From Phytohabitans maris (GTDB lineage: Bacteria; Actinomycetota; Actinomycetes; Mycobacteriales; Micromonosporaceae), in NCBI RefSeq assembly GCF_031085175.1, contig NZ_JAVHUY010000005.1, positions 186,001-250,000 on the forward strand: DNA of 64,000 nt. The letters run 5' to 3'. Below are positions 19,727-54,794 of the stretch, in pieces. Within the stretch, counting starts at the first letter, position 1; each line of letters opens with the position of its first letter. Below the pieces are notes generated by a model that worked only from the letters and a program-made list of their open reading frames with translations, was not told the origin of the DNA and ran no database searches. A program made the translations under genes and the position numbers.

Positions 19727-19744
19727 GGGGAGCAGGGGCGGCGC

Positions 19745-20653
19745 ATGCGGCACGGCAAGTACCCGCTGATCATCACGTTCCTGGTGCCGCCCCTGATCCT
19801 GTACGGCGTCTTCGTGCTCTCGCCGTACCTGCAGGCGTTCCAGATCTCCACCACCGACTGGCTCGGCTTCTCCGCGGACGCCAACTCGGTGGGGTTGGAC
19901 AACTTCGTCCGGCTCTTCAAGGACGACTACATCTGGAACGCCCTCAAGAACAACGCGATCATGCTCGCCGTCGTACCCGTGGTGACGATCGCCCTCGGCC
20001 TGTTCTTCGCGACGATGCTCAACATGGGCGGGCGCGGCGGGCGGGCCGGGGTCGCCGGCGTGCGCGGCACCGCGACGTACCGGCTGGTGTACTTCTTCCC
20101 GCAGGTGCTCTCCGTCGTGATCATCGCGATCATCTGGCGGGAGATCTACCACCCGAACGCCGGCCTGCTCAACAGCGCGCTGAAGGCCTTCGGCATCAAC
20201 GGGCCGGCCTGGCTGGGCGACCCGCGTACGGCGTTCTGGTGCGTGCTGGCCGTCATGGTCTGGGCCAACGTCGGCTTCTACGTGGTGCTCTTCGGCGCGG
20301 CGATGCAGGCCATCCCGAAGGACATCTACGAGGCGGCGCTCCTCGACGGCGCCTCCCGCTCGGTCACGCTCCGCCGGATCACCATCCCGCTGCTCTGGGA
20401 CACCGTGCAGGTCGCCTGGATCTACCTGGCGATCGCCGCGCTCGACGGGTTCATCCTCGTGCAGCAGATGACCGACGGCGGCCCCAACTTCTCCTCCGAC
20501 GTGATCGGCCTGCGCATGTACAACACCGCCTTCGGCACGGACACCAGGTTCGGGTACGCCTCGGCGATCGGCGTGGTGATGTTCTTCCTCACGCTCTCGG
20601 TGGCCGTACTGGCGCTGCGCGCGTCCCGCCGCGACCGGATCGAGTTCTCATGA
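19745..20653 (+). CDS. ngcF: ABC importer permease, NgcF-type (copy 1)
   Basis: A 302-residue sugar-ABC permease of the MalF/UgpA class with six predicted transmembrane helices. The cytoplasmic EAA loop, which docks to the ATPase, reads Y-E-A-A-L-L-D-G-A-S-R-S near residue 200. N-terminus M-R-H-G-K-Y-P-L-I-I-T-F matches the copy at 26375 (M-R-H-G-R-Y-P-F). The ATG has AGGGGAG-type sites upstream. The stop overlaps the next start by 4 bases, so NgcF and NgcG should be made together as a heterodimer. Confidence 0.92.
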   Translation: MRHGKYPLIITFLVPPLILYGVFVLSPYLQAFQISTTDWLGFSADANSVGLDNFVRLFKDDYIWNALKNNAIMLAVVPVVTIALGLFFATMLNMGGRGGRAGVAGVRGTATYRLVYFFPQVLSVVIIAIIWREIYHPNAGLLNSALKAFGINGPAWLGDPRTAFWCVLAVMVWANVGFYVVLFGAAMQAIPKDIYEAALLDGASRSVTLRRITIPLLWDTVQVAWIYLAIAALDGFILVQQMTDGGPNFSSDVIGLRMYNTAFGTDTRFGYASAIGVVMFFLTLSVAVLALRASRRDRIEFS

Positions 20654-21546
20654 CGCTGCTGGAAACCGAGGCCTCGCCGGCGAAGGCCGGGCCCGGAGCC
20701 GACCGCCCGCCGCGCCGCGAGTGGGGCGTGGCGAACGTCTTCTCGCACGGCTTCCTGTTCCTGTGGGCGCTGCTCACCACGCTGCCGCTGCTGTGGGTGA
20801 CGCTCAGCTCGTTCAAGGACAACGACGAGATCCTCACCGACCCGTGGGGCCTGCCCGGCGCGCTGCGGTTCGACAACTGGCGGCGCGCGTGGACCGAGGC
20901 GCACATCGGCCAGTACTTCTTCAACAGCGCGGTCGTGGTCGCCGGCTCGCTCACGCTCACCATGCTCTTCGGCGCCACCGCCGCGTACGTCTTCGCCCGC
21001 TACGAGTTCCGCTTCCGGCAGGTCTTCTACTACCTGTTCGTGGGCGGCATGATGTTTCCGGTCTTCCTGGCGCTGGTGCCGCTCTTCTTCGTGGTGCGCG
21101 ACGCCGGCCTCCTCGCCACCTGGCGCGGCCTCATCCTCGTGTACGCGGCCTACTCGCTGCCGTTCACCGTCTTCTTCCTGACCGCGTTCTTCCGCACCCT
21201 CCCGCAGACGGTCGCCGAGGCCGCGCTCATCGACGGTTGCGGCCACTTCCGGCTCTTCTTCCGGGTGATGCTGCCGATGGCGCGGCCCGGCCTGATCAGC
21301 GTGGCCATCTTCAACTTCCTCAGCCAGTGGAACCAGTTCATCCTGCCCCAGGTGCTCATGCAGGGCGACGACTCCCGCTGGGTACTGGCGCAGGGGCTGT
21401 CCGCGCTCGCGCTGAGCCAGGGCTACCACGCCGACTACAGCGGCCTCTTCGCCGGCCTGACGATCGCGATGCTGCCGGTACTCGGCGTCTACATCCTCTT
21501 CCAGCGCCAGATCCAGTCCGGCCTCACGGCAGGCCAACTGAAGTGA
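20650..21546 (+). CDS. ngcG: ABC importer permease, NgcG-type (copy 1)
   Basis: A 298-residue MalG-type permease, partner of the preceding protein. It has a soluble N-terminal 35 residues, six helices (first: F-L-F-L-W-A-L-L-T-T-L-P-L-L-W) and the EAA loop V-A-E-A-A-L-I-D-G-C-G-H. The C-terminus I-Q-S-G-L-T-A-G-Q-L-K matches the second copy (I-Q-A-G-L-T-A-G-A-V-K). The ATG overlaps the ngcF stop as ATGA. No ATPase gene follows, so a shared MsiK-like ATPase encoded elsewhere is expected. Confidence 0.92.
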   Translation: MTLLETEASPAKAGPGADRPPRREWGVANVFSHGFLFLWALLTTLPLLWVTLSSFKDNDEILTDPWGLPGALRFDNWRRAWTEAHIGQYFFNSAVVVAGSLTLTMLFGATAAYVFARYEFRFRQVFYYLFVGGMMFPVFLALVPLFFVVRDAGLLATWRGLILVYAAYSLPFTVFFLTAFFRTLPQTVAEAALIDGCGHFRLFFRVMLPMARPGLISVAIFNFLSQWNQFILPQVLMQGDDSRWVLAQGLSALALSQGYHADYSGLFAGLTIAMLPVLGVYILFQRQIQSGLTAGQLK

Positions 21547-21567
21547 CCCAGCCCGGAGAGAACGACT

Positions 21568-24935: not shown

Positions 24936-26369
24936 ATGTCCGTAACCCCCGACGGCACGTCGGACCTCACCCGTCGCACGCTGCTGCGCCGGGCCGCGGC
25001 CGCCGGTCTGCTCGCGACACCGGCCGCCGGCCTGCTCAGCGCCTGTGTGGGCGGTGGTGAAGACGAGCCGACCGACCAGGCGGAGGGCGAGAAGAGCGCC
25101 ACCAACCCGCTGGGCGTCGACGGCAAGGCTCCGCTGGAGATCTACATCTTCAACGGCGGCCTCGGCACCAAGTACGCGACCGACGTGCACGTCCCGTCGT
25201 ACAAGAAGTCGTTCCCCGAGGCCGAGGTGAAGTTCAACCAGGCCGAGGAGATGGCGACCGTGCTCCAGCCGCGGTTCACCAGCAACGAGCCGCCGGACAT
25301 GGTCAACAACGCCGGCTCGAAGCTGATGGACCAGGGCGCGCTGGTGCAGGCCGGCCAGGTGCAGGACCTGACCGAGCTGTTCGACGCGCCGTCGCTGGAC
25401 ATCCCCGGCAAGACGGTCAAGGACACGCTGGTACCGGGCACGATCGAGCAGGGCTCGTTCAACGGCAAGCCGTACGTGCTCAACTACGCCTTCACGGTCT
25501 TCGGCCTCTGGTACTCGGACAAGCTCTTCCAGACCAACGGCTGGGCCCCGCCGAAGACCTGGAGCGAGTTCACCGCGCTGCTCGACAAGGCCAAGGCCGC
25601 GGGCAAGACCGGGTACGCCTACGCCGGTGCGAACGCCGCGTACTACCAGTACCTGGTGATCCTCACGACCGCCGCCAAGATCGGTGGGCCGGACGTCCTC
25701 AAGAACATCGACAACCTCGAGGACGGTGCCTGGACCGCCGAGCCGGTCAAGCAGGCCGCGCAGATGTGGGGCGAGATCGGCGCCAAGTACATGAACAAGG
25801 CGCACCTCGGCCTGCAGCACACCGAGGTCCAGCTCCAGCAGAACCAGGACAAGGTGGTCTTCTACCCCTCCGGCTCCTGGCTGGAGAACGAGCAGGCCAA
25901 GGACACCCCGGCCGGCTTCAACTACGCGGTCGTCCCGGTGCCGAGCGCCACCTCCTCGGACAAGCTGCCGCAGACGGCGATCTACGCGGCGGCCGGTGAG
26001 ATGTACTTCGTCGCCGCCAAGGGCAAGAACCCGCGCGGCGGCATGGAGTACCTGCGCCACATGCTCTCCAAGGAGGGCGCGAAGGGCTTCACCCAGCTGA
26101 CCAAGGTGCTCACGGTCGTGCAGGGCGCCACCGAGGGCCTCACCATCTCGCCCGGCCTCACCAGCAGCGAGGCGATGCTCAAGGCGGCCGGCAGCGACTA
26201 CTTCGCGTACCGCTGGGACACCTGGTACAAGAAGATGGACGACGAGTGCCGGGCGGCCACCAACGAGCTGATGTTCAACGGTGGCGACGCCAACAAGTTC
26301 GTGACCCGCATGCAGAAGGTCGCGGACGACGTGAAGAAGGACCCGTCCATCGAGAAGTTCAAGCGGTAA
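24936..26369 (+). CDS. ngcE: ABC importer substrate-binding lipoprotein, NgcE-type (copy 2)
   Basis: A 477-residue NgcE-family binding protein. Its Tat signal is D-L-T-R-R-T-L-L-R-R and its lipobox L-L-S-A-C puts the lipid on Cys37; an acidic linker follows. The binding fold starts I-Y-I-F-N-G-G-L-G and has L-Q-P-R-F-T-S-N-E-P-P-D-M-V-N-N and Y-P-S-G-S-W-L-E-N-E. It is colinear with copy 1, but substitutions near the likely ligand surface (for example C-G-S-W-I versus P-S-G-S-W-L) suggest a different sugar. The ATG has GAGGAG 9 bases upstream; longer in-frame readings lack a signal peptide start. Confidence 0.9.
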   Translation: MSVTPDGTSDLTRRTLLRRAAAAGLLATPAAGLLSACVGGGEDEPTDQAEGEKSATNPLGVDGKAPLEIYIFNGGLGTKYATDVHVPSYKKSFPEAEVKFNQAEEMATVLQPRFTSNEPPDMVNNAGSKLMDQGALVQAGQVQDLTELFDAPSLDIPGKTVKDTLVPGTIEQGSFNGKPYVLNYAFTVFGLWYSDKLFQTNGWAPPKTWSEFTALLDKAKAAGKTGYAYAGANAAYYQYLVILTTAAKIGGPDVLKNIDNLEDGAWTAEPVKQAAQMWGEIGAKYMNKAHLGLQHTEVQLQQNQDKVVFYPSGSWLENEQAKDTPAGFNYAVVPVPSATSSDKLPQTAIYAAAGEMYFVAAKGKNPRGGMEYLRHMLSKEGAKGFTQLTKVLTVVQGATEGLTISPGLTSSEAMLKAAGSDYFAYRWDTWYKKMDDECRAATNELMFNGGDANKFVTRMQKVADDVKKDPSIEKFKR

Positions 26370-26374
26370 CCGTC

Positions 26375-27286
26375 ATGCGGCATGGCAGGTACCCGTTCAT
26401 CGTCGGCTTCCTGATCGCGCCGGTCACGATCTACGTGACCTTCGTGATCGCGCCCTACATCCAGGCCTTCTACCTGGCCTTGACCAACTGGCGCGGTGTC
26501 TCGGCCAACCCGAAGTTCATCGGGCTGGACAACTTCGAGCGGTTGCTGACCGACGACACCTTCTGGAAGGCCGTACGGCATCACGGCGTGCTGTTGCTTG
26601 TCCTGCCGCTGGTGGCCATCGCGATCGCCCTCGTGTTCGCGTTCCTGCTGAACGTGGGCGGAGGGTCCAAGGGTGGCGCGATGAGGGGGGTCTGGGGGTC
26701 GAGGTTCTACCGGATCGTGTTCTTCTTCCCCCAGGTCCTCGCCGTCGTCATCATCGCCGTGATCTTCCGGCGGGTGTACGCGCCGGACGAGACCGGACTG
26801 GTCAACGGGCTGCTGGGCGTCGTCGGGATCGACCCGATCCCGATCATGGCGGACAAGAACATCGCGCTCTTCGCGATCATCGCGGTGCTCGTGTGGCAGG
26901 CGGTCGGCTTCTACGTGGTGCTCTTCTCGGCCGGCATGGCGTCGGTGCCGAAGGACATCTACGAGGCGGCGGTGCTCGACGGCGCCGGGCGGTCGAGCAT
27001 GTTCTTCAAGGTGACGCTCCCCCTGCTCTGGGACACCCTCCAGGTCGCCTGGGTGTACCTCGGCATCGCGGCGTTCGACGCGTTCGCCATCGTCAACGTC
27101 CTCTCGATCGAGCAGGGCGGCCCGGACGGCGCCACCACGGTGCTCGGCATGGAGATCTACCGCAACGCCTTCTCGTACTCGCAGTTCGGCTACGCCTCGG
27201 CCATGGGTGTGGCGCTCTTCTTCCTGACCATCACGTTCGCCGCGCTGACCCTGCGGGTGAGCCGGCGCGAGACGATCGAGCTCTAG
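26375..27286 (+). CDS. ngcF: ABC importer permease, NgcF-type (copy 2)
   Basis: A 303-residue MalF-type permease with six predicted helices, 5 bases behind the second binding protein. Its EAA loop is Y-E-A-A-V-L-D-G-A-G-R-S, nearly the same as copy 1. A Gly/Lys-rich cytoplasmic loop (G-G-G-S-K-G-G-A) replaces the Gly/Arg loop of copy 1. It should pair with the next gene product. Confidence 0.92.
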   Translation: MRHGRYPFIVGFLIAPVTIYVTFVIAPYIQAFYLALTNWRGVSANPKFIGLDNFERLLTDDTFWKAVRHHGVLLLVLPLVAIAIALVFAFLLNVGGGSKGGAMRGVWGSRFYRIVFFFPQVLAVVIIAVIFRRVYAPDETGLVNGLLGVVGIDPIPIMADKNIALFAIIAVLVWQAVGFYVVLFSAGMASVPKDIYEAAVLDGAGRSSMFFKVTLPLLWDTLQVAWVYLGIAAFDAFAIVNVLSIEQGGPDGATTVLGMEIYRNAFSYSQFGYASAMGVALFFLTITFAALTLRVSRRETIEL

Positions 27287-27298
27287 GGGGTATCGACA

Positions 27299-28222
27299 GT
27301 GGCACGCATCGACGCCCCGGCGCCCCCGCGGCGGGAGGGCCTGCCGCCGCGCGGCCACAGCGGGCCGGCTGGCGAGCGGCGCCGGGAGATCGGCCTGCTC
27401 AACAGCCTCGCGCACGTCGGGCTCGCGCTCTGGGCGATCATCATCATCGCCCCGTTGCTCTGGATGTTCCTCGCCTCGTTCAAGAGCAACACCGAGATGT
27501 ACCTGGGCAACCCGTTCAGCCTGCCGTCGTCGATCAACCTCGACAGCTACGTACGGGCGTGGAACGAGGCGCACGTCGGCCGGTACTTCCTCAACAGCGT
27601 CTTCGTGGTCGCGCTGAGCACGGCCGGCACCATGCTCTTCGGCTCCATGGCGGCGTACGTGCTGGCCCGGTACAAGTTCATCGGAAACCGGATCATCTAC
27701 TACCTGTTCGTCTCCGGGCTCGCGTTCCCCGTGTTCCTGGCGCTGGTGCCGCTCTTCCTCATCGTCAACAACATGGGGCTGCTCAACACGTTCACCGGCT
27801 TGATCCTGGTCTACATCGCGTACTCGCTGCCGTTCACCGTGTTCTTCCTGGCCGCGTTCTTCAAGACGCTGCCGAACTCGGTCGCGGAGGCCGCGGTGAT
27901 GGACGGCGCGTCACACACGCGGCTGTTCTTCCAGGTGATGATGCCGATGGCGAGGCCGGCCCTGGTGAGCATCACGATCTTCAACATCATCGGGCAGTGG
28001 AACCAGTACCTGCTGCCGGTGGCGCTCATGCAGGGCGAGGGCGCCCAGGAGAAGTGGGTGCTGACCCAGGGCATCGCGAACATCTCGGTCCAGGCCGGCT
28101 ACGAGGCCGACTGGGCGGCGATGTTCGCCGCGGTGACTCTCTCCATCCTGCCCATGATCATCATGTACGCCTTCTTCCAGCGCCAAATCCAAGCCGGCCT
28201 GACCGCCGGCGCCGTCAAGTAG
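27299..28222 (+). CDS. ngcG: ABC importer permease, NgcG-type (copy 2)
   Basis: A 307-residue MalG-type permease. A charged Pro/Arg-rich N-terminus of about 35 residues precedes six helices, starting A-L-W-A-I-I-I-I-A-P-L-L-W-M. The EAA loop is V-A-E-A-A-V-M-D-G-A-S-H. The GTG start has AGGGGG 8 bases upstream. The operon ends here without an ATPase gene, as in copy 1. Confidence 0.92.
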   Translation: MARIDAPAPPRREGLPPRGHSGPAGERRREIGLLNSLAHVGLALWAIIIIAPLLWMFLASFKSNTEMYLGNPFSLPSSINLDSYVRAWNEAHVGRYFLNSVFVVALSTAGTMLFGSMAAYVLARYKFIGNRIIYYLFVSGLAFPVFLALVPLFLIVNNMGLLNTFTGLILVYIAYSLPFTVFFLAAFFKTLPNSVAEAAVMDGASHTRLFFQVMMPMARPALVSITIFNIIGQWNQYLLPVALMQGEGAQEKWVLTQGIANISVQAGYEADWAAMFAAVTLSILPMIIMYAFFQRQIQAGLTAGAVK

Positions 28223-28234
28223 CCCCCATGCGGC

Positions 28235-36461: not shown

Positions 36462-37129
36462 TCAGGGTGCTGCTGGCGGACGACCAGGGGCTGGTGCGGG
36501 CCGGGTTCCGGGCGCTGCTGGACGCCGAGCCGGACATCGAGGTGGTCGCCGAGGCGGCCGACGGCGTCGAGGCCGTCCGGCTCACCGGGCAGACCCGGCC
36601 CGACGTCGTGCTCATGGACATCCGGATGCCCGGCGTCGACGGCCTGGAGGCCACCCGCCGGATCGTCGCCGACCCGGCGCTCGCCGCGACCCGGATCGTC
36701 ATCCTGACCACGTTCGAGCTCGACGAGTACCTGTTCGAGGCGCTGCGGGTGGGCGCCTCCGGCTTCCTGGTCAAGGACACCGAGCCGGTCGAGCTGCTGC
36801 GCGGGGTGCGCGCGGTGGCGGCCGGCGACGCGCTGCTCTCGCCCGGGGTGACCCGGCGGCTGATCGCCGAGTTCGCGGGCCGGGGCGGTGCCCACCCGGC
36901 CGCGCCCGAGCCGTCGCTGGAGCAGCTCACCGACCGGGAGCGCGAGGTGATGGCCCTGGTCGGCGCCGGACTGTCCAATGAGGAGATCGCCGCCCGCCTG
37001 GTGGTCAGCCCGGCCACCGCCAAGACCCACGTGAGCCGCGCGATGGTCAAGCTCGGCGCCCGCGACCGCGCCCAGCTCGTCGTGTATGCGTACGAGGCCG
37101 GCCTGGTCCGCCCCGGCTGGCTCGGCTGA
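36458..37129 (+). CDS. NarL/LuxR-family response regulator
   Basis: A 223-residue response regulator. The receiver domain has D-D-Q near residue 9, the phosphoacceptor Asp54 in V-V-L-M-D-I-R-M-P-G, a Thr near 80 (I-L-T-T-F) and Lys in F-L-V-K-D-T. The LuxR-type helix-turn-helix (about 155-220) contains L-T-D-R-E-R-E-V-M-A-L-V and A-T-A-K-T-H-V-S-R. It is translationally coupled to the kinase (ATGA). The DUF1707 gene opposite is a plausible target, given similar pairings elsewhere. Confidence 0.95.
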   Translation: MIRVLLADDQGLVRAGFRALLDAEPDIEVVAEAADGVEAVRLTGQTRPDVVLMDIRMPGVDGLEATRRIVADPALAATRIVILTTFELDEYLFEALRVGASGFLVKDTEPVELLRGVRAVAAGDALLSPGVTRRLIAEFAGRGGAHPAAPEPSLEQLTDREREVMALVGAGLSNEEIAARLVVSPATAKTHVSRAMVKLGARDRAQLVVYAYEAGLVRPGWLG

Positions 37130-37638
37130 GCCGCCATCTCGCGCCGCCCCCATCCCGTCCCCCGAGGCATTGCGACCATCAGGCACGGCGCGTATCGCAT
37201 TACGCCGAGCCAACAGACCGGTGCCGGGCAACGGACGTGCCCGAAGGGGGGAGCCTCGGGGCGCCGACCGGGCTGAAATCGCGGTCCGGACAGTTCGACG
37301 CGGGCCGGGGTGGCCGGATGGGCCGGTCGGCGGGGAAGGATCGTTGATGTGATGGTGCGTGCCGTCGTGACGATCGGAGCGCGCCCATACACCCCCCGAG
37401 CGTGTCAAGGTGGGTAAATCGCCACAAACTCGTAATCTGTCTGGTGGCTCTACCGGCCGATCATTACCGCATGCCCCGACACGTCCACCTTCCAGGCGGC
37501 GATCCCGCTGGGTGGTGTCGCCCATGAAAAATCCTGGGACCGTGTCGCGGACGAGACGCGCCTGCCCGAGTCCGGGGGGCGGCCCGTGGCGTTGTATCGT
37601 TGCCCGTCTTTCTGGTCGCTGCCGCTTCTGGAGTAAAC
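37130..37638 (+). other. 509-base gap before the Fxs locus; no supported gene
   Basis: No frame here has protein-like composition with a start and ribosome site. A small stem (CGGGCA/TGCCCG, about 37222-37240) may end the two-component transcript. The last 250 bases are less GC-rich in patches and must contain the fxsA promoter, but I could not fix -35/-10 boxes. A possible cis-regulatory leader was considered and not supported. Confidence 0.5.
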
Positions 37639-37809
37639 GTGAACGACACTGAGAGTGACATATTGAGCGAGGTACTCGATCTTCGCGGCGTTGCGATCAT
37701 GGACCTTGTGGCGCTGGAGGACAGCGTCCTCGCCGCTTCCGTGCGCCAGGTGTTCGGCGGCGGTCCGGTCGACGAGGAGTTCGTTTCTCCGTTCACCTCC
37801 GCCATCTGA
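37639..37809 (+). CDS. fxsA: FxSxx-COOH precursor peptide (FxsA-like)
   Basis: A 56-residue acidic peptide. The last five residues are F-T-S-A-I, matching the F-x-S-x-x-COOH signature of the precursors paired with FxsB radical SAM proteins. The N-terminal part (D-I-L-S-E-V-L-D-L-R-G-V-A-I-M-D-L-V-A-L-E-D split by short turns) is Leu/Asp-rich, typical of a leader. The GTG at 37639 has GGAG 7 bases upstream; a longer in-frame reading adds 13 hydrophobic residues without a ribosome site. The radical SAM gene begins 23 bases later. The modified residue(s) and the mature product are unknown. Confidence 0.87.
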   Translation: MNDTESDILSEVLDLRGVAIMDLVALEDSVLAASVRQVFGGGPVDEEFVSPFTSAI

Positions 37810-37832
37810 GCGCGGACGGATACCCACCGACC

Positions 37833-39011
37833 GTGGCCGGCCACGTCGATGCTGGACGAGGACCGAAGGCGCTTCGGCAGATATTGATGAAGGTGCACGG
37901 TTCGTGCAACCTCGCATGCGACTACTGCTACGTGTACGAGCATGCCGACCAGGGATGGCGGGCCCGCACCTCGGCCATGTCCCCGACCGTGCTGGCCCAG
38001 TCCGCGCGGCGCATCGGTGAACACGTCACCTCGCGCGACATCCGCCGCCTGAGGGTGATCCTGCACGGCGGCGAACCCTTGCTCGCCGGGCCTCAGGCCA
38101 TCGACGACATCGCCCGCTCCCTACGGGGCTCGGTGCGGCCCACCACCGACCTCGAGCTCGTCGTGCAGACCAACGGCACTCTCCTCAACGAGGCGTTCCT
38201 GGCGGTCTTCCACCGGCACGGCATCCGCGTCGGCGTCAGTATCGACGGCACCGGTGCGGCCCACGACCGGCACCGCCGCTTCGCCAATGGGCGGGGCAGC
38301 CACGAGCGGGTCGCTCGGGGGATCGCGCTGTTGACTCGGCCGGAGCACCGGTCGCTCTACTCTGGACTGCTCTGCACCATTGATTTGGCCAATGACCCGG
38401 TCGAGACATACGAAAGCTTGTTGTGGTCGCGGCCGCCCAAGCTGGATCTGCTTCTGCCGCATGGCAACTGGCTCCACCCACCCGGCGGCCTGGCCGGCGG
38501 CGGCACGCCGTACGGCGACTGGCTGATCGCGGTCTTCGACCGCTGGTACGACGCGCCTACCCGGGAGACCGAGATCCGCCTGTTCGGCTCCATCCTCAGC
38601 CTGCTGCTCGGCGGCCCGGCGAGCAGCGAGGTCATCGGCCCGGATCCGGACGACCTGGTAGTGATCGAGTCGGATGGCACGATCGAGCAGCACGACGCGT
38701 TGAAGTCGACTGTGGACGGTGGGGGTGCGACCGGGATGACCGTCATGGCGCAGAGCCTCGACGACGTGCTGGCGCACGAGGCGTGGTCACGGGCGCCAGG
38801 GCTCGGTCCGGAGTGCCGGCGCTGCCCCGAGGTGGCCGTCTGCGGTGGCGGCCTGCGCGCGCACCGCTTCGACCCCGCTCGCGGCTTCGACCGCCCGTCG
38901 GTGTACTGCGCTGACCTGTTCGCGCTCATCCGGCATGTGCGCTCTCGGCTGACCCACGACATCGAAAGACTACGGCCCACCATGGCGGCGGAGAGATGCC
39001 CGAGCACCTGA
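37833..39011 (+). CDS. fxsB: Radical SAM/SPASM protein, FxsB family
   Basis: A 392-residue radical SAM enzyme that should modify the FxsA peptide. The cluster motif C-x3-C-x2-C is C25-N-L-A-C29-D-Y-C32, followed by G-G-E-P (in L-H-G-G-E-P-L-L). The C-terminal SPASM-like region has C328, C331, C337 and C359, ligands for auxiliary clusters. The GTG start gives M-A-G-H-V-D-A; the first ATG would be too close to the cluster motif. It overlaps the HExxH gene by 16 bases. The reaction is not known; related SPASM enzymes make C-C, C-O or C-S crosslinks. Confidence 0.92.
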   Translation: MAGHVDAGRGPKALRQILMKVHGSCNLACDYCYVYEHADQGWRARTSAMSPTVLAQSARRIGEHVTSRDIRRLRVILHGGEPLLAGPQAIDDIARSLRGSVRPTTDLELVVQTNGTLLNEAFLAVFHRHGIRVGVSIDGTGAAHDRHRRFANGRGSHERVARGIALLTRPEHRSLYSGLLCTIDLANDPVETYESLLWSRPPKLDLLLPHGNWLHPPGGLAGGGTPYGDWLIAVFDRWYDAPTRETEIRLFGSILSLLLGGPASSEVIGPDPDDLVVIESDGTIEQHDALKSTVDGGGATGMTVMAQSLDDVLAHEAWSRAPGLGPECRRCPEVAVCGGGLRAHRFDPARGFDRPSVYCADLFALIRHVRSRLTHDIERLRPTMAAERCPST

Positions 39012-40738
39012 TAAGCGCCGCACAGTTCGGCGAACTGGCCGCGGGCTACGGCGGCCGCCAGGCCATGGAGACACTCCTCGCCGGGCAGATCTCCAGGGGG
39101 ATGCTGCTGCTGCGCGCCGTGCTGGCGGCGTGCCCGGACGAGCGGTTGCCGGGTGACGCGTTGACGCTGATCGCGGACGCGCAGCGGGAGGATCCCGCCG
39201 CGGTGGAGTCGGTGCTGGCGCATCCCTTCTTCGCCGCCTGGGCAACGAACCGGGTGAGGGCGGCCCATCCTGGCGCCGGGGGCGACCCCGGCCGCCTCTT
39301 CGCGTATGCGGCCACTGCCGCGATTCGTGCCGGCCTCGACTTCGAACTGGCGGTCCCGGTTCGCGGCGGCGCGCTCTGGCTCCCCGGCCTCGGCCTGGCG
39401 ACGGGGCTCGGCGCGGCCCCGTCGGCGACGGTGCGCAATCGGCGTCGCGAAGGGGTTGTGATCGGCGGATCGGAGCGCGAGGTCGTGGTCGGGCGTGCCT
39501 TCGAGTCGGCGATGCCCGGCTGGCTGCCGCTGCGGATCGCCCGGGCCGGTATCGGTGACGAATCGATCGCGCTGATGGTGGAGGACCTGGATCCATACCG
39601 GGACCTCTTTCAATGGCCACTGGCGCCGCGCCTGTCCGACGAGGCCGTCGCCGACTTCCAGCGCCTCCTGGGCGACGCTTGGACGATCGTCACCCGCGAT
39701 CATCCCGAGCACGCGATCGCGTTGCGGACGGGATTGCGGGCGGTGGTGCCGCTGGTGAGCACCGACCCGGCGGCGGAGGTCAGCGCGGCGTCACGGCTCG
39801 CCTGCGGGTCGATCGGTCTGGCGGTTCCGTCGGATGCCGAGACACTGGCGATGCTATTGATCCACGAATTTCAACATATGAAGCTCGGCGCGTTGCTGGA
39901 TCTCGTGCCGTTGTACCGGCCAGGCGGCGCGCCGCGACACCGGGCCCCGTGGCGACCGGACCCACGGCCCGCCGGCGCGTTGCTCCAGGGGGCGTTTGCC
40001 CACATTGGAGTGACGGACTACTGGCGGCTGCGTCGCCGTCGGCGGCCCGGGGCGGCAGCGGACCTGGAGTTCGGCTACTGGCTGGCCCAGACTATCGAGG
40101 CGACCGACACCCTCGACCGAAGCGGGGAGATGACCGATCACGGCCGGCGGTTCGTGACCGGGATGGCGCGTACGCTGCGGGGCTGGCGGGAGACCGAGGA
40201 ACTACCGCCCGGTATCCGCCGTGCGGTTGACGACATGTCCCGGGCCGGCTCAGTCGCCTGGCGGCTGCGCAATGTGCGGCCCGCACAGGACAGCGTGGAG
40301 CGGGTGCTCGAAGAGTGGCGAGACCAGTTGGCCGGGCATCGGGCGCAGGCGCCGTCGACGGAGCCGTCCACGTCGCTGCCGCTGTTGCCGGGGCTGGCCC
40401 GTCTGGTACGCCAGCGCACCATCGGAAGGTCGACCGAGCGGGCCGGCGAGCCGGCTGTGGCGTATCTGCGCGGCGACTGGCCCGCTGCGACACGGCGGTA
40501 TCAGGACTCGATCGCGGCCGACCCCGACGATCACGAGAACTGGGTCGGGCTCTCGCTCGCGGCCGGGCGGCTGGATCCGGACACCGCGGTCGCCCGGGCG
40601 CTCGCCGCCCGGCCGGAACTCGTCCGGGCCGCTTACCGGTGCCTGCGTGGCGCCGGCGTCGCGGCCACGGTCGGCGCCGTCGCGGAGCGTGTGGCCTATA
40701 CCGAAGGCGGCTCGATGTCACAGTTGAACCGGGTCTGA
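38996..40738 (+). CDS. HExxH-motif protein of the Fxs locus
   Basis: A 580-residue protein of the HEXXH motif family found with FxsB-type radical SAM genes. The motif H290-E-F-Q-H294 suggests a zinc site, as in metallopeptidases. The flanks L-A-M-L-L-I and M-K-L-G-A-L-L-D fit a metzincin-like active helix. The last third contains a short TPR-like stretch (A-V-A-Y-L-R-G-D-W-P-A-A-T-R-R-Y). It could cleave the leader from FxsA or modify it. No signal peptide. The start overlaps fxsB. The 3' end overlaps the convergent FxsT gene by 43 bases, unusual for convergent genes. Confidence 0.87.
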   Translation: MPEHLISAAQFGELAAGYGGRQAMETLLAGQISRGMLLLRAVLAACPDERLPGDALTLIADAQREDPAAVESVLAHPFFAAWATNRVRAAHPGAGGDPGRLFAYAATAAIRAGLDFELAVPVRGGALWLPGLGLATGLGAAPSATVRNRRREGVVIGGSEREVVVGRAFESAMPGWLPLRIARAGIGDESIALMVEDLDPYRDLFQWPLAPRLSDEAVADFQRLLGDAWTIVTRDHPEHAIALRTGLRAVVPLVSTDPAAEVSAASRLACGSIGLAVPSDAETLAMLLIHEFQHMKLGALLDLVPLYRPGGAPRHRAPWRPDPRPAGALLQGAFAHIGVTDYWRLRRRRRPGAAADLEFGYWLAQTIEATDTLDRSGEMTDHGRRFVTGMARTLRGWRETEELPPGIRRAVDDMSRAGSVAWRLRNVRPAQDSVERVLEEWRDQLAGHRAQAPSTEPSTSLPLLPGLARLVRQRTIGRSTERAGEPAVAYLRGDWPAATRRYQDSIAADPDDHENWVGLSLAAGRLDPDTAVARALAARPELVRAAYRCLRGAGVAATVGAVAERVAYTEGGSMSQLNRV

Positions 40739-43700
40739 CCCGTCCGCGCAGCCGCTGTGTTCGGGTGATCGTCGCCGAGCGTGCGGCGGATTCTGGCCAG
40801 GACGCCGGTGCTGAGCGACCGCGCGCGGGCGGTGTCACCGGTGGCACGCCGGCTCAGCGCGAGATTGACCGCAGCCGCCAAGGTGTCCGGGTGCTCCTCT
40901 CCGAGCACGGCGGAGAATCGCGCGAATGCCTGCTCGTCCAGGTCGCGTGCGCGGTCGTACTCGGCCATCGCGTAGACGTCGTTGGCGAGGTTGAGCTGGC
41001 TCGCGATCGCGTACGGATGGTCCGGGCCGAGGCGTTCGACCAGCCGCTCCACCACTCGCTCGGAGAGCGAGCGGGCAGTGTCGTGGTCGCCTTGCCGGCG
41101 GATGAAGATGGCCAGGTCGTTGGCGCAGGCCAGGGTGAAGGGGTGGTCCTCGCCGACGAGGCGCTGGTAGCGGCCGAGCACCGCCTCAGCACGCTGCTGG
41201 GCGGCCCGGTCGTCGTTGAGGGCCGAGTCGTCGCAGGCCAGGTTGAGGGAGCAGGCCAGCGTGTCGAGATGTTCCGGGCCGTGACGGTGTTCGTGTTTGG
41301 TCAAGGTGTCGCGGGTGAGATCTCGGGCGACCTCCAGGTCACCCATCTTCCGGAGCGTGACCGCCATGCTGCGCGCGGCCCGCAGGGTGTCCGCGTGCTC
41401 GTCGCCGAGCACCGTCCGCAGGTGCTCGAAAGTCTGTTCGAGGACTCGTTTCGACCCCGGGAAGTCGCCGATCTCGCGCAGGTCGCGCCCGTAGTTCGCG
41501 GCGAACTGCAGCGTCAGGGGGTGTCGCTCGCCGAGCACCTCGCGGCCGCGGCGCAGCGTCTCCTCGTCCAGCTCCGTGGCGCGCCGGAAGTCTCCGACCA
41601 GACGCAAGGTGACGGCGAGGTTGTTGGCCGCGGCGAGCGTTTGCTGGTCGTCCTCGCCGAAGACTCTCCGGAACCGCACAAGGGTCAGTTCGTCGAGGTC
41701 GCGGGCCTGCGCGTACCGCCCGAACGTGCGCAGGTCGGCGCCGAGGCTCCGGGCGGTCAGGAGCGTGTACGGGTGCTCGGGGCCGAGCGTGCGCTCCTGG
41801 CGCGCGAGGATGTCCTGGTTTTGGGCGAGTGAGGCGGTGTAGTCACCCCGGGCCCGCACGGTGTTGGCGAGGTGGAAGCGGAGGACCAGGGTCATCGGGT
41901 CGTCGTCCAGGATGTCCGCGGCCGACCAACGAACCTGGGTCTCCTCGGCCAGCTCCTGGCAGCTGACGTAGTAGCCACGCCGGTAGAGATAGCGGACGAC
42001 GTCGATGACAAGCTGCCGGACCTCGGGTGTGGTGGATTCGATGGTCTTCGGGGGCACCAGGTGTGGCCAGATCTCGTCGTACACGTCCCAGAAGCTGGGC
42101 TCGTCGGGGTTCTTCGGGTTTGCCGCGGCCAGGATCTCGTGCACGTGCCGGCGGTTCTCCCGTTGGTCCTGCGGTGAGAGCCGCTCCCGGATGACCGCTT
42201 GGACCAGCCGGTGCACCTGGATGCTGCTCGGACCCGCGCCCGGCTGGGCCAGGGCGAAGCGCCCGATGTCGCGGATCAGGGCGCCGACGAGCATCCGGTC
42301 CTTCAGATCGCGCAGCGCCACGTCGTACTCCGCGAGCACCTTGACGCAACGGTCGCTGTAGAGCAGGGCGGTGGGTATCGGCTCGGGGCCGAAGAAGGAA
42401 CAGAGCTCCATCAGCTTCGCCGCGGCTGGGCGCTGCTGGCGGAGCCGGTCGAGCGAGAGCAGCCAGATAGCGGCGGCGGTCTCCTGGTAGCCGGGGGGCG
42501 GGTTTTCGGCCAGCACCCGGGGCAGCTGGCGGTCCAGCTCACGTAGGTACTCGCTGACCGGCATGGCGGTCTCCGCCAGCCAGGCGGCCGCTTGCTCGAT
42601 GGCGAGCGGCAGGTCGCCGAGCTTTTCGGCGACCTGGTCGGCGTCGACCTCGGCGAGCCCCTTGACCTTCTTACGGAGCAGCGCGATGCTTTCCCCGCGG
42701 GCGAACACTCCAATGTGGATCGGGCGGGCCTGGCTGCTCCAGGCCGGGTTTCGAGAGGTCAGAAGCACATCGCCGGGCCCCTGCGGGATGTACTCGCGGA
42801 CGTCGGCAGGATCGTGCACGTTGTCGTAGATCAACAGGTATCGCCGGTATGGCTCGCCCCGCTCGAGCGCGTCGAGGACGGTCCGGGCGGTGGCGTTGTC
42901 GTTGTCCTCCATCGGGATCCCGAGCTTCTCACCCAGTTCGGCCAGCTCGGCGCGGATCATGCCCGGCTGCTCCGCCGAGATCCACCAGACGACGTCGTAG
43001 TGGGCGGCGAACCTGTTCGCGTACTCACGCGCGACCTGAGTCTTGCCGACGCCGCCGAGGCCGTAGAGCGCCTGCGGCATGACCACCGTGACCGTGCCGG
43101 CCAGCTCGTCCCGAAGGTTTTCCAGGATGTCGTTGCGGCCGGTGAACGCGGCGTTGCGTGGGGGGACCTTCGAGACCGGAGGGCGGGCGCTGGGGAAGCG
43201 GGGTCGGTGTCCCGCCGTTCCGGTCCGCTGGCGGGGAGCGACGGTCGTCGGCTGGCGACCCGTCGAGTTGAGGAGCGCGTCCCGTGCCTCCTCCTCCGAC
43301 CGGTCGAAGAGGTCGACCGGCGGGCGGTCCGCGAACGGCGGCACGACGCGAGCCGGCACCGGACGCAGCGGCACCAGGTACCGGTGCAGGTTGGTCGCCT
43401 CCAGGTCGCTCAGCGTCTTCCAGAGCAGAGCCGCGTTGTCGGACTGCACGTACTCCGGTGAGAGCAGCACCATGACCCGGGCGGTGCTGGTCATGGTGCT
43501 GCTGAGGTCGGCCATGGTCTGCGTAACCGCTGGCGAGTCGATCTCCTGGTAGGTCGCCTGCACCCCGGCGGTCGAGAGTTCGGAGACGATCCACTCGGCC
43601 CAGATCCGGTCGACCGAGGCGTAGCTGACGAGGACCGTGGAGATCAGACCGGCGCGAGGCCGCTCGAACTGGGCCAACCAGCGCCGCCGCTCGGCCTCGT

Positions 43701-44655
43701 CGATCGCACCGACCTCGCTGACCTGGCCGTCGGTGAGCACGTATGCGAGCCGTTCGAACGCGGCCAGCAGGGAGTTCTCCTGGTGCGGCCGGTCACCGAA
43801 CGCGGCGAGGATCTCCTCGTACGCGTAGTAGGGTTTGTATGGAATTTCCACGTCACCCCAGTAGCGGCTTATGTCGCCGGGGGACATTTGAGACAGAAAA
43901 TGGTCGAATCCGATTCGGGCGAAGTCGCGGCCCGCTTCCAGCTTGATCTGTTCCCCGTCTTCCACCTTCATCGGGACGGGGAGCACCCGCACCGGCGCAC
44001 CGCGCCGCCTGTTTTGAATCGAATGCGCGACCGCCACGGCGCCGTCTATGCTCTGCGTACTCATCGTGAAGCAGTCCACGACGATGTCGGGCAGCAGTAC
44101 GGTGCAGACGCCGGCCGCGTCACTCAGTCCGGTGCGGCTGTCCAGGAGCACATAGTCGTACTCCCGCCGAATCTCTTCGCGAAGAATGGTGAGGAAGGTG
44201 CCGCCCTTTCTTTTCTCGTAGAAGCTCGCCCAGTCGAACGTGCTCACGGAGAGGGAGTAGGCGGAGTCCTGCTGGCCGGCGGGGACGAAGTCGATGGTGC
44301 CGTTGCCCGGGAAGGGCCACTCCAGGGAAGCGGCGTAGTCGCTGATCCGGGCGTACTCGCGGGGCCAAGCCTCGGTGTCCGGCTCCGTGCCGGAGCGTGG
44401 CTGCAACGTCGCGGCGGCGAAGTTGCGGATGAGGTCGATGACTCCCGGAGACGAGCGCAGCTCCTTGTCGACCAGGAAGGGCCGGAAGTACCGGTGCAGC
44501 CCTGGCGACTCCAGGTCCCAGTCCAGCGTGAGCACCCGCAACCCATTGCTGGCAAGGATCCAGGCGATGTTGGCCACCGCCATGGTGCGCCCCGTGCCGC
44601 CCTTGTACGAGTAGAAGGTGACGATCTGACCTGGTGTGCTGCCGGCTCCGGTCAT
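40696..44655 (-). CDS. fxsT: FxsT: ParA-like NTPase / TIR / NB-ARC / TPR protein
   Basis: A 1319-residue STAND-type protein. Domains in order: (1) ParA/MinD-like NTPase with deviant Walker A K18-G-G-T-G-R-T24 and D-S-R-T-G-L near 172; (2) TIR-like domain about 336-435 (L-V-S-Y-A-S, L-L-S-P-E-Y); (3) NB-ARC with Walker A G532-L-G-G-V-G-K-T539; (4) about nine kinesin-light-chain-type TPRs, each with a G-x-x-H-P-x-T-L core, to the C-terminus. In the TIR domain the usual catalytic Glu position is not Glu (S-D-N-A-A-L-L-W), so it may be a scaffold. The ATG at 44655 overlaps the FxsC stop and has GAGGGA 6 bases upstream; an ATG 18 bases earlier lacks this. It probably oligomerises on a trigger sensed by the TPRs. 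Confidence 0.9.
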   Translation of the reverse strand: MTGAGSTPGQIVTFYSYKGGTGRTMAVANIAWILASNGLRVLTLDWDLESPGLHRYFRPFLVDKELRSSPGVIDLIRNFAAATLQPRSGTEPDTEAWPREYARISDYAASLEWPFPGNGTIDFVPAGQQDSAYSLSVSTFDWASFYEKRKGGTFLTILREEIRREYDYVLLDSRTGLSDAAGVCTVLLPDIVVDCFTMSTQSIDGAVAVAHSIQNRRRGAPVRVLPVPMKVEDGEQIKLEAGRDFARIGFDHFLSQMSPGDISRYWGDVEIPYKPYYAYEEILAAFGDRPHQENSLLAAFERLAYVLTDGQVSEVGAIDEAERRRWLAQFERPRAGLISTVLVSYASVDRIWAEWIVSELSTAGVQATYQEIDSPAVTQTMADLSSTMTSTARVMVLLSPEYVQSDNAALLWKTLSDLEATNLHRYLVPLRPVPARVVPPFADRPPVDLFDRSEEEARDALLNSTGRQPTTVAPRQRTGTAGHRPRFPSARPPVSKVPPRNAAFTGRNDILENLRDELAGTVTVVMPQALYGLGGVGKTQVAREYANRFAAHYDVVWWISAEQPGMIRAELAELGEKLGIPMEDNDNATARTVLDALERGEPYRRYLLIYDNVHDPADVREYIPQGPGDVLLTSRNPAWSSQARPIHIGVFARGESIALLRKKVKGLAEVDADQVAEKLGDLPLAIEQAAAWLAETAMPVSEYLRELDRQLPRVLAENPPPGYQETAAAIWLLSLDRLRQQRPAAAKLMELCSFFGPEPIPTALLYSDRCVKVLAEYDVALRDLKDRMLVGALIRDIGRFALAQPGAGPSSIQVHRLVQAVIRERLSPQDQRENRRHVHEILAAANPKNPDEPSFWDVYDEIWPHLVPPKTIESTTPEVRQLVIDVVRYLYRRGYYVSCQELAEETQVRWSAADILDDDPMTLVLRFHLANTVRARGDYTASLAQNQDILARQERTLGPEHPYTLLTARSLGADLRTFGRYAQARDLDELTLVRFRRVFGEDDQQTLAAANNLAVTLRLVGDFRRATELDEETLRRGREVLGERHPLTLQFAANYGRDLREIGDFPGSKRVLEQTFEHLRTVLGDEHADTLRAARSMAVTLRKMGDLEVARDLTRDTLTKHEHRHGPEHLDTLACSLNLACDDSALNDDRAAQQRAEAVLGRYQRLVGEDHPFTLACANDLAIFIRRQGDHDTARSLSERVVERLVERLGPDHPYAIASQLNLANDVYAMAEYDRARDLDEQAFARFSAVLGEEHPDTLAAAVNLALSRRATGDTARARSLSTGVLARIRRTLGDDHPNTAAARTGQTRFNCDIEPPSV

Positions 44656-45917
44656 GACGTGTCCCTCGGCCATGTTTCGTTCTCCGGTCTGGACTGCGGT
44701 CCGTCCAGGATTGGGCGATCCACGTGCAGGTCAGGCGGTACGCGCAGGGACTCGCCCTCGGCGAGCAGCCGGTTGTACGCGTGTTCCAGCACCTCGTCGA
44801 GGACGCTCGTGAAGTCGTCGTGGGTGGGCACCCCGAAGCGGAACATGCGGGGGTCCTGATGCCGGGCGCTGCGGGCAAGCACCATGCGGCATGCTTCGTC
44901 GAGGGTCCGCCAGTGGTCGATGCTCTCGTTGTCGTGCCGGTTGAGCGGGATCATGACCGCGGCGGTGGCGGAGCCGTCAGCGTCGTGTTGGGCCAGCATC
45001 GAGCCGTGCTCGGTCAGCTGCGTCGCCCAGGCGTCCACCAGGAGCACGAGCAGTTGGTTGTGCGCACGGGCCCGTTCGGCGCGGTCGGACAGCTCACCGA
45101 TGTCGGCGACCTCCGCACGGAACTGGCGGCGCGCGGCGATGGCCGAGGCGTAGGAGCCCAAGGGCTGTGACAGGTGAGGCCGGTATGGGGCCCAGTCGCC
45201 GTACGTGTCGCCGTAGTAGTCGAGCCTGGTGCGGTGTGCCCGCATATGCTCCCGGGAGGCCGCCGCGACGACGAAGTGCACATGCTTGGCCGTGTGCCGC
45301 AGGGCGGCGGAGCCGGCGGGCCCCTTCTCCGGCGCGAACGTGCTCTGTACGAACCGGATGTCCGTGCGGCCGGGTAGCGGCTGGAGCGGAAACGTCCGTG
45401 CGTTCGCCACGATCATCTCGGCCAGGGCGGAGATGAAGCTGAGCCGGCGGTCGCGGTGCTTGCCGAGACGCATGTAGTTGCGCAGACCGTCCTCGCGGTA
45501 GCGCAGGCCGAGGTGTTCGGTCGTCTGCTGGAGCTCCTGCGCCGAGTTGTGCATGGCCGTTCCGGCCATCCACACCAGGGGAAACATCAAGGGCGGCCGC
45601 GAACCGGACTGGGTCGACGTGTAGCGCACGCGCTCGGCGAAGACGGCCCACTCCTTGCCGCAGTACTCGCTGTTGAAGTAGAGGGGTGAGCAGAGCGCGA
45701 CGAAGGTGCGGCTGCGCTGCAATGCGCTCGTGAGCTCCTCGGTCCATGGCGCACCCAACCCGATATCTCGGGTGTCCAGAAATCCGATCTCGAATCCGGC
45801 GGGCTCGCCGGAGCGCATTCTGACTTCCTTGCAGAGTTCTTCGAAGAACTTTCGGACGTATGCGTCGTCACCGCCGCGCGCATAGCTGAGGAAGAAGTAC
45901 GGAAGCCTCTCCGGCAC
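44652..45917 (-). CDS. fxsC: TIR-like protein FxsC
   Basis: A 421-residue protein. The N-terminal TIR domain starts L-P-Y-F-F-L-S-Y-A-R and has L-D-T-R-D-I-G-L-G and S-P-L-Y-F-N-S-E-Y-C-G-K-E-W. Glu89 in K-E-W lies where catalytic Glu sits in NAD-cleaving TIR enzymes, so enzyme activity is plausible. The C-terminal 200 residues form the FxsC-specific domain (H-V-H-F-V-V-A-A-A, W-A-P-Y-R-P, V-M-I-P-L-N-R-H-D). I prefer the GTG at 45917 because GGAGG lies 5 bases before it; an ATG at 45929 adds four residues but has no ribosome site. It is coupled to fxsT by ATGA. About 170 bases upstream hold the promoter; a TTGACA (46046-46051, minus strand) is a candidate -35. Confidence 0.9.
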   Translation of the reverse strand: MPERLPYFFLSYARGGDDAYVRKFFEELCKEVRMRSGEPAGFEIGFLDTRDIGLGAPWTEELTSALQRSRTFVALCSPLYFNSEYCGKEWAVFAERVRYTSTQSGSRPPLMFPLVWMAGTAMHNSAQELQQTTEHLGLRYREDGLRNYMRLGKHRDRRLSFISALAEMIVANARTFPLQPLPGRTDIRFVQSTFAPEKGPAGSAALRHTAKHVHFVVAAASREHMRAHRTRLDYYGDTYGDWAPYRPHLSQPLGSYASAIAARRQFRAEVADIGELSDRAERARAHNQLLVLLVDAWATQLTEHGSMLAQHDADGSATAAVMIPLNRHDNESIDHWRTLDEACRMVLARSARHQDPRMFRFGVPTHDDFTSVLDEVLEHAYNRLLAEGESLRVPPDLHVDRPILDGPQSRPENETWPRDTS

Positions 45918-46088
45918 ACCAGCCTCCATGCGCAGGAATGACCGCGGTCCGCCGGTAGGTGATGGGCCTGCCGTTCGACACGGAAATGATCAGCGGGAGG
46001 GACCCTGAATTGTCAGACACTAAGAGTCCCTCAGCTGATACGTACTGTCAACGCCCAATGGGAGTCGCCTTGGCGACCGCAGGGAGGA

Positions 46089-47983
<1,895 letters not shown>

Positions 47984-54159: not shown

Positions 54160-54384
54160 ATGCGGGTCACTACCAAGGGTCAAGTGACGATCCCCGTCGA
54201 GATCAGGGAGCGCTTCGGGTTCCTGCCGGACACTGAGGTGGAGTTCGTGGTCCAGGACGACATCGTCCGGCTGCGACGCGTCGATCAGCCTGAGCATCGG
54301 CGTGGAGACCGAGTGATCAGCCGTCTGCGTGGGCGCGCCAAGGGCAAGATGACCACCGACGAGATCCTCGCGCTGACCAGGTAG
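54160..54384 (+). CDS. vapB: AbrB/MazE-type antitoxin (VapB-like)
   Basis: A 74-residue protein with a swapped-hairpin AbrB DNA-binding domain: V-T-T-K-G-Q-V-T-I-P-V-E-I-R-E-R-F-G. The C-terminal part (K-M-T-T-D-E-I-L-A-L-T-R) should bind and block the toxin. The ATG has a perfect AGGAGG 5 bases before it. The PIN-domain toxin starts 2 bases after the stop. Confidence 0.93.
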   Translation: MRVTTKGQVTIPVEIRERFGFLPDTEVEFVVQDDIVRLRRVDQPEHRRGDRVISRLRGRAKGKMTTDEILALTR

Positions 54385-54386
54385 CA

Positions 54387-54794
54387 GTGGGCGTCACGCT
54401 GGTCGACAGCAACGTGTTGCTGGACATCGCGACCGAAGACCCTCAGTGGTACGCCTGGTCGGAAACGGCGCTCATCGATGCAGCCGACAGTGGCCAGCTA
54501 GCGATCAATCCAATCGTCTACGCCGAAGTCTCCATCGGTTTCCCTACGATCGAGGAGCTGGAGGATGCTGTCCCAGCCGACACCTTCGCGCGTCTGAAGC
54601 TGCCATACGAGGCTGGCTTCCTAGCTGGCAAGGCGTTCCTCAGCTACCGGCGACGAGGCGGCGCCAAGGCAACGCCCCTGCCGGACTTCTACATCGGCGC
54701 GCATGCCGCGATCGAGGGCTATCGGCTGCTCACCCGCGATGCGACCCGGTACCGCGCCTATTTTCCCACTGTGGACGTCATTGCGCCGCAATGA
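54387..54794 (+). CDS. vapC: PIN-domain ribonuclease toxin (VapC-like)
   Basis: A 135-residue PIN nuclease that should cleave RNA when freed from its antitoxin. Acidic residues typical of the active site are visible: Asp in L-V-D-S-N-V-L-L-D, Glu in Y-A-E-V-S-I-G, and Asp in L-P-D-F-Y-I-G-A-H-A and L-L-T-R-D-A-T-R-Y. GTG start 2 bases behind the antitoxin stop gives tight coupling. Length matches the family. Confidence 0.93.
   Translation: MGVTLVDSNVLLDIATEDPQWYAWSETALIDAADSGQLAINPIVYAEVSIGFPTIEELEDAVPADTFARLKLPYEAGFLAGKAFLSYRRRGGAKATPLPDFYIGAHAAIEGYRLLTRDATRYRAYFPTVDVIAPQ

Follow-up and report, generated by a model that had tools for sequence, protein, structure and literature searches.

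What does a peptide-modifying radical S-adenosylmethionine (SAM) enzyme do beside proteins built like immune receptors? The question is raised by an FxSxx-COOH (Fxs) locus of Phytohabitans maris, located at positions 37639-45929 of the 64,000-nucleotide stretch of contig NZ_JAVHUY010000005.1 analysed here (the window). The locus encodes a short precursor peptide (FxsA), a radical SAM enzyme (FxsB), a HExxH protein (FxsH), a protein resembling nucleotide-binding leucine-rich-repeat receptors (NLRs; FxsT) and a separate TIR protein (FxsC). All five genes are present and open, as judged by open reading frame (ORF) reading and translation; four proteins pass curated NCBIfam cut-offs and the short precursor falls below its own. 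A preceding sequence-only reading had described a complete five-gene Fxs locus, and that description is confirmed. The locus is of a known kind, with NCBIfam models for all five proteins; new here are the linkage counts for the FxsB, FxsT and FxsC sets, and the similar leader that precursors carry with and without FxsB. We tentatively read the locus as a standalone peptide-NLR module carried as an accessory insert, in which a modified C-terminal tag of FxsA would be read by the NLR and answered by a TIR response, likely in abortive anti-phage defence or another conflict. We put the probability of this reading at roughly 45%.

The gene sets on the two strands of the window belong together. In a first sample of 101 relatives, 36 genomes carry 67 FxsB ORFs, which represent 66 genes (locus L192 in genome G005 is half of a broken fused gene). 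Within 10 kb of these ORFs lies an FxsT-type NLR (above 150 bits with our own profile) in 54 cases, a MinD-type FxsT in 32 and FxsC in 31. The HExxH protein is fused to FxsB or located within 3 kb of it in 48 of the 67, and an FxsA-like ORF stands beside 45 of the 67 under a loose pattern that admits some false ORFs. When at most eight FxsT candidates per genome were scored and the best 99 used, 52 of the 67 FxsB ORFs were found near such a match, against none of 50 control radical SAM proteins; the controls were the first 50 weaker radical SAM matches, unmatched for genome or sequence-record length. FxsC occurs near 30 of the 32 loci with a MinD-type FxsT and near 1 of the 35 remaining FxsB loci, and beside the seemingly non-MinD FxsT of that lone case (L176) the MinD part is encoded on an overlapping ORF. 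The linkage is seen from the other genes as well: 33 of 38 FxsC matches lie at most 12 kb from FxsB, and among 69 HExxH genes above 100 bits, 62 have one of the best 99 FxsT matches, and 48 have FxsB, within 12 kb. Loci found through FxsT alone in named genomes (79, two of which duplicate loci of the first set) contain FxsC in 77 cases and FxsB in 65. A fused FxsB-HExxH gene is present in 51 of the 79, and there FxsB, FxsC and FxsT share one strand. The sequence-only reading was to be abandoned if plus- and minus-strand genes failed to co-occur in other genomes; they do co-occur, in 54 of 67 FxsB neighbourhoods for the NLR and in 65 of 79 FxsT loci for FxsB.

The arrangement of the window genes departs in places from what had been reported. 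The fxsA gene (37639..37809, plus strand, 56 amino acids) starts with GTG, with GGAG at 37630-37633, five nucleotides upstream. A gap of 23 nt separates it from fxsB (37833..39011, plus strand, GTG start), and fxsB overlaps fxsH (38996..40738, plus strand) by 16 nt; of the plus-strand overlaps claimed earlier, only that between fxsB and fxsH stands. The fxsC (44652..45929) and fxsT (40696..44673) genes both lie on the minus strand. They had been described as convergent and coupled by ATGA: the ATGA junction is obtained with the alternative fxsT start at 44655, and the two genes are co-directional. It is the fxsC-fxsT pair that converges with the plus-strand trio, the tails of fxsH and fxsT overlapping by 43 bp. 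The earlier locus end at 45917 is an internal GTG of fxsC, the first ATG being at 45929. ORF calling in the segment 37133-46107 returned only the five Fxs genes, which agrees with the previous statement that an exporter and a separate peptidase gene are lacking: neither an exporter nor a leader peptidase of a secreted ribosomally synthesised and post-translationally modified peptide (RiPP) was called there, and FxsH combines the HExxH of a peptidase with the profile of a hydroxylase. Family searches with the five proteins revealed no vWA family member, and no sixth gene was called in the segment.

FxsA ends in SPFTSAI directly before FxsB, as expected of an FxSxx-COOH precursor. Its C-terminus, EEFVSPFTSAI, contains two FxS motifs, FVS and FTS, the second motif having been overlooked before. 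Double aromatic-x-Ser/Asn motifs are also seen in the precursors picked for L135, L171, L174 and L185; the picker is heuristic, leaves the window out of its table of core residues (wrong ORF), and made some other choices that look wrong, e.g. for L300, L247, L195 and L278. FxsA has no NCBIfam match at an expectation value (E) of 0.001. Under a looser limit it aligns with positions 2-44 of the 44 of TIGR04268 at 18.7 bits (cut-off 28; E 0.0016). This model is strict for so short a peptide: among relatives, L183 and L184 pass its cut-off and L133 gives no match. Our own FxsA profile recovers the window peptide, one of its seeds, at E 1.4e-19. An FxSxx ORF beside FxsB is more than chance. As a chance background, an FxSxx ending occurs in 61 of the 19,344 stop-to-stop ORFs from the 68 stretches fetched first; in another set, and with the slightly wider ending [FW]x[SN]x(1-3), such an ORF lies just upstream of 50 of 52 fused FxsB-HExxH ORFs. 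Loci L129, L144, L166 and L170 encode another type of precursor, with a YAAH-(G/S/N)-(S/T/N)-like tail; each has two copies of it, close to FxsB, HExxH and a pair of NLRs that come without MinD or FxsC.

FxsB, a radical SAM/SPASM protein with the cluster motif CNLACDYC, scores 444.5 bits against TIGR04269 (cut-off 370) and matches the ChlB radical SAM structure 9gm3 at E 1.4e-77. NCBIfam names the FxsB family cyclophane-forming. MscB is a homologue of FxsB by its InterPro number, IPR026335, which is presumably that of the FxsB family. MscB forms a bond between Phe C4 and Ser C-beta, and triceptides are recognised as a natural-product class (PMC11002830).

FxsH scores 164.5 bits against TIGR04267 (cut-off 40), the family of alpha-ketoglutarate (aKG)-HExxH-type peptide beta-hydroxylases, and its HEFQH (residues 290-294) and WRPDPRP motifs are intact. 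Like ChlH and other aKG-HExxH hydroxylases it has HExxH, and it matches the structures 22nu (E 6.4e-66) and ChlH 8s5f (E 5.3e-5). Motif and profile place FxsH in this family, and hydroxylation by FxsH is probable by analogy with its relatives. A HExxH relative is described as an aKG hydroxylase, contrary to an earlier peptidase label, and PflC and PosC as HExxH enzymes that cleave the backbone oxidatively, PflC being proteolytic without a leader (PMC12636437). The statement that no function or product is established for these families is therefore superseded by the cyclophane-forming and beta-hydroxylase names in NCBIfam, the MscB bond and the hydroxylase activity of the HExxH relative.

Of 70 HExxH proteins from relatives' loci that could be read, 69 have the motif intact. 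Among the 52 fused ORFs of the named-genome set, by contrast, 36 appear to have lost it (one of them, L259, is merely gapped there and reads intact elsewhere), and NCBIfam holds a model, NF040587, for the inactivated form. HExxH is lost in fused ORFs and FxsB is absent elsewhere; either enzyme can thus be missing from loci that retain the precursor and the NLR. Hydroxylase state was compared with the core residue in picked precursors whose motif is followed by just two residues. Of the 39 with intact HExxH, 37 have A, G, P or K ahead of the ring Phe or Trp; of the 22 with lost HExxH, 19 have T or I there. An FxsB tree of 57 rows requires two changes for HExxH loss; T or I is confined to a Streptomyces-side clade, and the other loss (L179) keeps G. 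The association traces to one evolutionary event, the T/I shift, and does not prove that hydroxylase state and core residue are coupled.

Loci with HExxH and without FxsB have a similar leader and differ in the tails. Surrounding sequence was available for 20 of 21 such loci, the last lying on a short contig. A small ORF with a similar leader is present in 19 of the 20 (FxsA profile, E 4.9e-17 to 0.13); the weakest matches, L199 and L206, are not significant alone, and those of L202, L208 and L211 lie off the strand of the HExxH gene. Another tail is found in 13 of the 19 precursors, nine of the RxD type and four with a GYN-like core. RxD stands at the C-terminus or one residue from it (e.g. 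GPPGRAD, NPQRLD) in L197, L198, L199, L200, L203, L206, L207, L209 and L213. TIGR04268 reaches the leader below its cut-off in L197, L198 and L196, and does not in L207 or L213. Since a similar leader occurs with and without FxsB, this enzyme by itself does not account for it; candidates for reading the leader are FxsH and FxsT. FxSxx, RxD and acidic peptide types have been named before, with radical SAM tied to FxSxx (PMC7159879), and the Pseudomonas peptide PosA, which is cut by a HExxH enzyme, ends in ARMD (PMC12636437), an ending to be compared with the RxD-COOH tails.

FxsT scores 1032.8 bits against NF040586 (cut-off 300) and 136.2 bits against NF047398. It consists of a MinD-like domain with KGGTGRT, a TIR_2 domain without CxxE, NB-ARC and a TPR array (Pfam TIR_2, NB-ARC and TPR_10/TPR_12). 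The MinD-like domain has Arg at the position of the P-loop Lys in 33 of 33 aligned sequences, as in the KGGVGR variant of NCBIfam. Walker A, Walker B and an MHD-like motif, named as in plant NB-ARC proteins, are all present in FxsT, which assigns it to the STAND/NB-ARC proteins, and the columns GLGGVGKT, LLIYDN, TSR, LPLA and HRL are 84-100% conserved in 79 NLR sequences. CxxE is absent from all 14 of the FxsT TIRs that align well, with scores above 60 bits. The protein resembles plant and bacterial TIR-NB-ARC immune receptors in its TIR, its NB-ARC motifs and its repeat sensor; it differs from them in having TPR instead of leucine-rich repeats, an added MinD-like domain, and the catalytic-type TIR on a separate protein. 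At L133 (G004), which holds a tandem Fxs pair, one of the two FxsT is broken up into several ORFs. The RxD loci L197, L198 and L213 encode FxsT-like NLRs with a SAV_2336 N-terminal domain in place of MinD-TIR.

The separate TIR protein, FxsC, passes NF040588 (148 bits, cut-off 130) and TIGR04276 (135.7 bits, cut-off 55) and scores 48.2 bits with Pfam TIR_2. The glutamate at the CxxE position of TIR domains is catalytic. The FxsC TIR keeps it (CGKEW, Glu93), whereas that of FxsT has lost it, and in 36 FxsC sequences the conservation of C90, E93 and W94 is 90% or more. With a TIR family match and a glutamate at the catalytic position, FxsC is a candidate TIR NADase effector, for which cleavage of nicotinamide adenine dinucleotide (NAD) is predicted. 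Its TIR profile finds nothing in the PDB at E 0.001; when E up to 10 is allowed, the matches are headed by plant and other TIRs, starting at E 0.062, and in that first, weak alignment CGKEW falls on the CxxE of the flax L6 TIR. The AlphaFold2 model of FxsC (predicted local distance difference test score, pLDDT, 87.2) retrieves the plant TIRs RPV1, RUN1, L6 and SNC1 at probabilities of 0.99-1.00 and E 0.0015 to 0.023. The seven matches of the model at E <= 0.001 are all sugar isomerase domains with a template modelling (TM) score of 0.2, which we take as artefacts of a two-domain alpha/beta protein. The C-terminal alpha/beta domain has no convincing relative among solved structures by sequence (best E 0.068 and 0.055), and its model (pLDDT 91.6) has no fold match at E <= 0.001; the best folds among the best 50 matches listed are flavodoxin, dehydroquinase and receiver-like, with query TM at most 0.44. 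Profile comparison of this domain with the FxsC TIR gives a probability of 1%. Some FxsC copies of congeners, at L131, L132, L133 and L136, have a TIR that lost the glutamate (CGRVW); at two of these loci, L132 and L136, a protein made up of a TIR alone, with CxxEW, adjoins the Glu-less copy. Homologues share an RPIL(E/Q)GP-like tail, located at the very C-terminus in many of 16 aligned sequences; the window FxsC (44652-45929) extends 14 residues beyond it.

The genomic site is consistent with an accessory element. In blastn comparison with four congeners (G002-G005, pieces over 150 bp), both flanks align to the window, with 77-95% identity in the blocks beside the gap; alignment on the left stops at 37129-37133 and resumes on the right at 46107-46111. 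The intervening segment, 37133..46107, is not found between these flanks in any of the four. The interval measures 1.9-2.1 kb in three congeners and 7.2 kb in G005, and contains a Ser/Thr-kinase-like ORF (HRDVKPHN and DFG, judged by eye), with extra genes beside it in G005. Since the flanks align and the Fxs segment is missing, it was either inserted at this site or replaced the kinase-like gene. Its G+C content is 68.8%, against 72.2% in the rest of the window. Among 15 direct repeat families and 10 inverted pairs in 36900-46400, none was judged an attachment site. Relatives of FxsH occur in 4 of 72,556 plasmid records, all below 60% identity. The host genome contains three FxsB loci above the cut-off, of different make-up. 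Elsewhere in the window, a MazE-like antitoxin and PIN-domain pair (54160-54794) lies immediately beyond the conserved right flank, where there is no alignment to G003. The stretches 18349-21557 and 24987-28225, ABC transporters by eye, look like duplicated operons, since each also aligns, at about 65%, with the copy that congeners have of the other.

With the NCBIfam FxSxx-COOH system (TIGR04267, TIGR04268, TIGR04269, TIGR04276, NF040586, NF040588) the locus has all five parts in common, together with the gene orders A-B-H and C-T and the C-terminal FxSxx. It differs from the commonest layout, fused and on one strand, in its separate FxsB and FxsH and its facing FxsC-FxsT pair, an arrangement also seen in L137, L183, L184 and L225. 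Burroughs et al. (eLife 2020, PMC7159879) describe standalone FxSxx peptide systems with AP-ATPases and propose a conflict role. Those AP-ATPase/MinD-ParA systems, as presented there, share with our locus the FxSxx peptide, the HExxH protein, the radical SAM enzyme and the AP-ATPase with an inactive-type MinD; the locus differs in having no vWA ternary part, and we read as a hydroxylase what is treated there as a peptidase (PMC7159879). With triceptide or 3-CyFE enzymes (MscB, ChlB) the common ground is the FxsB family and the aromatic-x-Ser/Asn core, the differences being that the Fxs locus is without a called exporter and is paired with NLR and TIR proteins. Three other assignments were rejected: a VMAP/vWA ternary conflict system, for which the vWA protein is missing; Thoeris, with ThcB4 at 21 of 220 bits and the ThsB/ThcB cut-off not reached; and a secreted RiPP cluster, since only the five Fxs genes were called in the segment. 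In PADLOC, FxsA, FxsH and FxsC have no match at E 0.01, and among 21 FxsC TIRs PDC-S66 is matched by two and ThsB by one.

The mechanism that we propose begins with chemistry largely established for relatives. By homology, FxsB would join the Phe ring at the FxsA C-terminus to the beta-carbon of the Ser that follows two positions later (in FTS, perhaps also in FVS), and FxsH may beta-hydroxylate a nearby residue, judging from its characterised relatives. From domain make-up and linkage we infer the rest, namely the contact between TPR array and peptide, the direction of switching and the immune role. The modified FxsA would not be exported by the locus, and its tagged C-terminus would remain cytosolic. 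TPR proteins bind short C-terminal peptides in other systems; the FxsT array could bind the tagged C-terminus of FxsA in this way. Loss, change or appearance of the tag would flip the NB-ARC switch. The FxsT TIR, without a catalytic-type glutamate, would then recruit FxsC, whose glutamate-bearing TIR is predicted to attack NAD or make a nucleotide signal. The most likely use would be an abortive anti-phage or other conflict response. In a more specific form, for which we see distinctly less than even odds, a bacterial NLR guards or senses a self-made ribosomal peptide with a C-terminal cyclophane tag, the modification state is the input of the switch and the tag serves as a changeable password. 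This form is suggested by the variation of the tag between lineages (FxS or WxS, aromatic-x-Asn, RxD) while the hydroxylase, the NLR and a similar leader are retained.

Several observations weigh against the module reading. Of the 67 FxsB ORFs, 13 have no NLR within 10 kb. FxsB distances correlate with those computed for FxsT and FxsC (r 0.93-0.95 for 79 and 71 loci, with none of 999 permutations as high), a correlation confounded by species descent, which alone could yield it; and the nearest-neighbour locus by FxsB is that by FxsT or FxsC in only 32-44% of cases. For the window, FxsB is closest to its L225 counterpart, while FxsT and FxsC are closest to those of L138 or L183, a hint of some reshuffling. 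At least one CxxEW TIR was counted by eye in 25 of the 31 loci with an FxsC-type TIR, the exceptions being L133, L140, L148, L152, L154 and L169; one catalytic TIR per locus therefore fails as a rule and holds, as at least one, in those 25. Six of the 19 precursors without FxsB (L202, L208, L210, L211, L214, L215) keep an aromatic-x-Ser/Asn tail. They speak against a simple rule that no FxsB means no ring motif, and they lower the odds of a password; another enzyme, or an FxsB beyond the fetched stretch, may serve them. PADLOC has no model for the system and returns partial matches to pVip (42.9 bits, FxsB) and PDC-M28B (70.9 bits, FxsT). The literature searched, which included few subscription journals, contains no experiment tying Fxs genes to phage defence or NAD loss.

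Among the alternatives, the one that survives best, though we think it rather unlikely, makes modified FxsA a signal within or between cells, in development or kin sensing, with FxsT and FxsC as its receptor and relay and no immune function. TPR receptors of peptide pheromones exist, which counts for it. The eLife 2020 account, for its part, offers "peptide toxin or signal" and links to CRP-like regulators (PMC7159879). The signal reading fits poorly with a segment in which no exporter gene was called, and with a patchy cassette that is absent at this site from four congeners while three differently composed FxsB loci lie in the host. FxsH might instead be a peptidase that cuts FxsA and releases a C-terminal peptide toxin or signal, as its HExxH motif and a published proposal would have it (PMC7159879); oxidative backbone cleavage by PflC and PosC, and the leader-free proteolysis by PflC, lend this some weight (PMC12636437). 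We hold it improbable: among named families the best match is one of aKG hydroxylases, the solved relatives include ChlH, and of the 52 fused FxsB-HExxH ORFs, 36 appear to have lost the motif while 50 keep an FxS-type precursor upstream. Still less probable is that the locus makes a triceptide secreted as an antimicrobial and that its NLR genes are passengers. Triceptides are indeed natural products (PMC11002830), but no transporter gene was called in the segment, the NLR linkage is far above control (52 of 67 against 0 of 50), and HExxH and NLR co-occur also without FxsB. That the plus- and minus-strand sets are unrelated neighbours, as their opposite strands in the window might suggest, is practically ruled out by FxsC in 77 and FxsB in 65 of the 79 FxsT-found loci and by the single strand of the 51 fused-gene loci.

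If the module reading is true, a bacterial NLR would have a modified peptide as its ligand. RiPP enzymology would then be linked to innate immunity, and there would be a testable reason for the presence of an actinobacterial family of modification enzymes beside NLRs. Even as a system of known kind, the locus is a compact five-gene unit suited to stepwise dissection: it has a single precursor and encodes its two enzymes separately, which allows individual steps to be deleted one by one.

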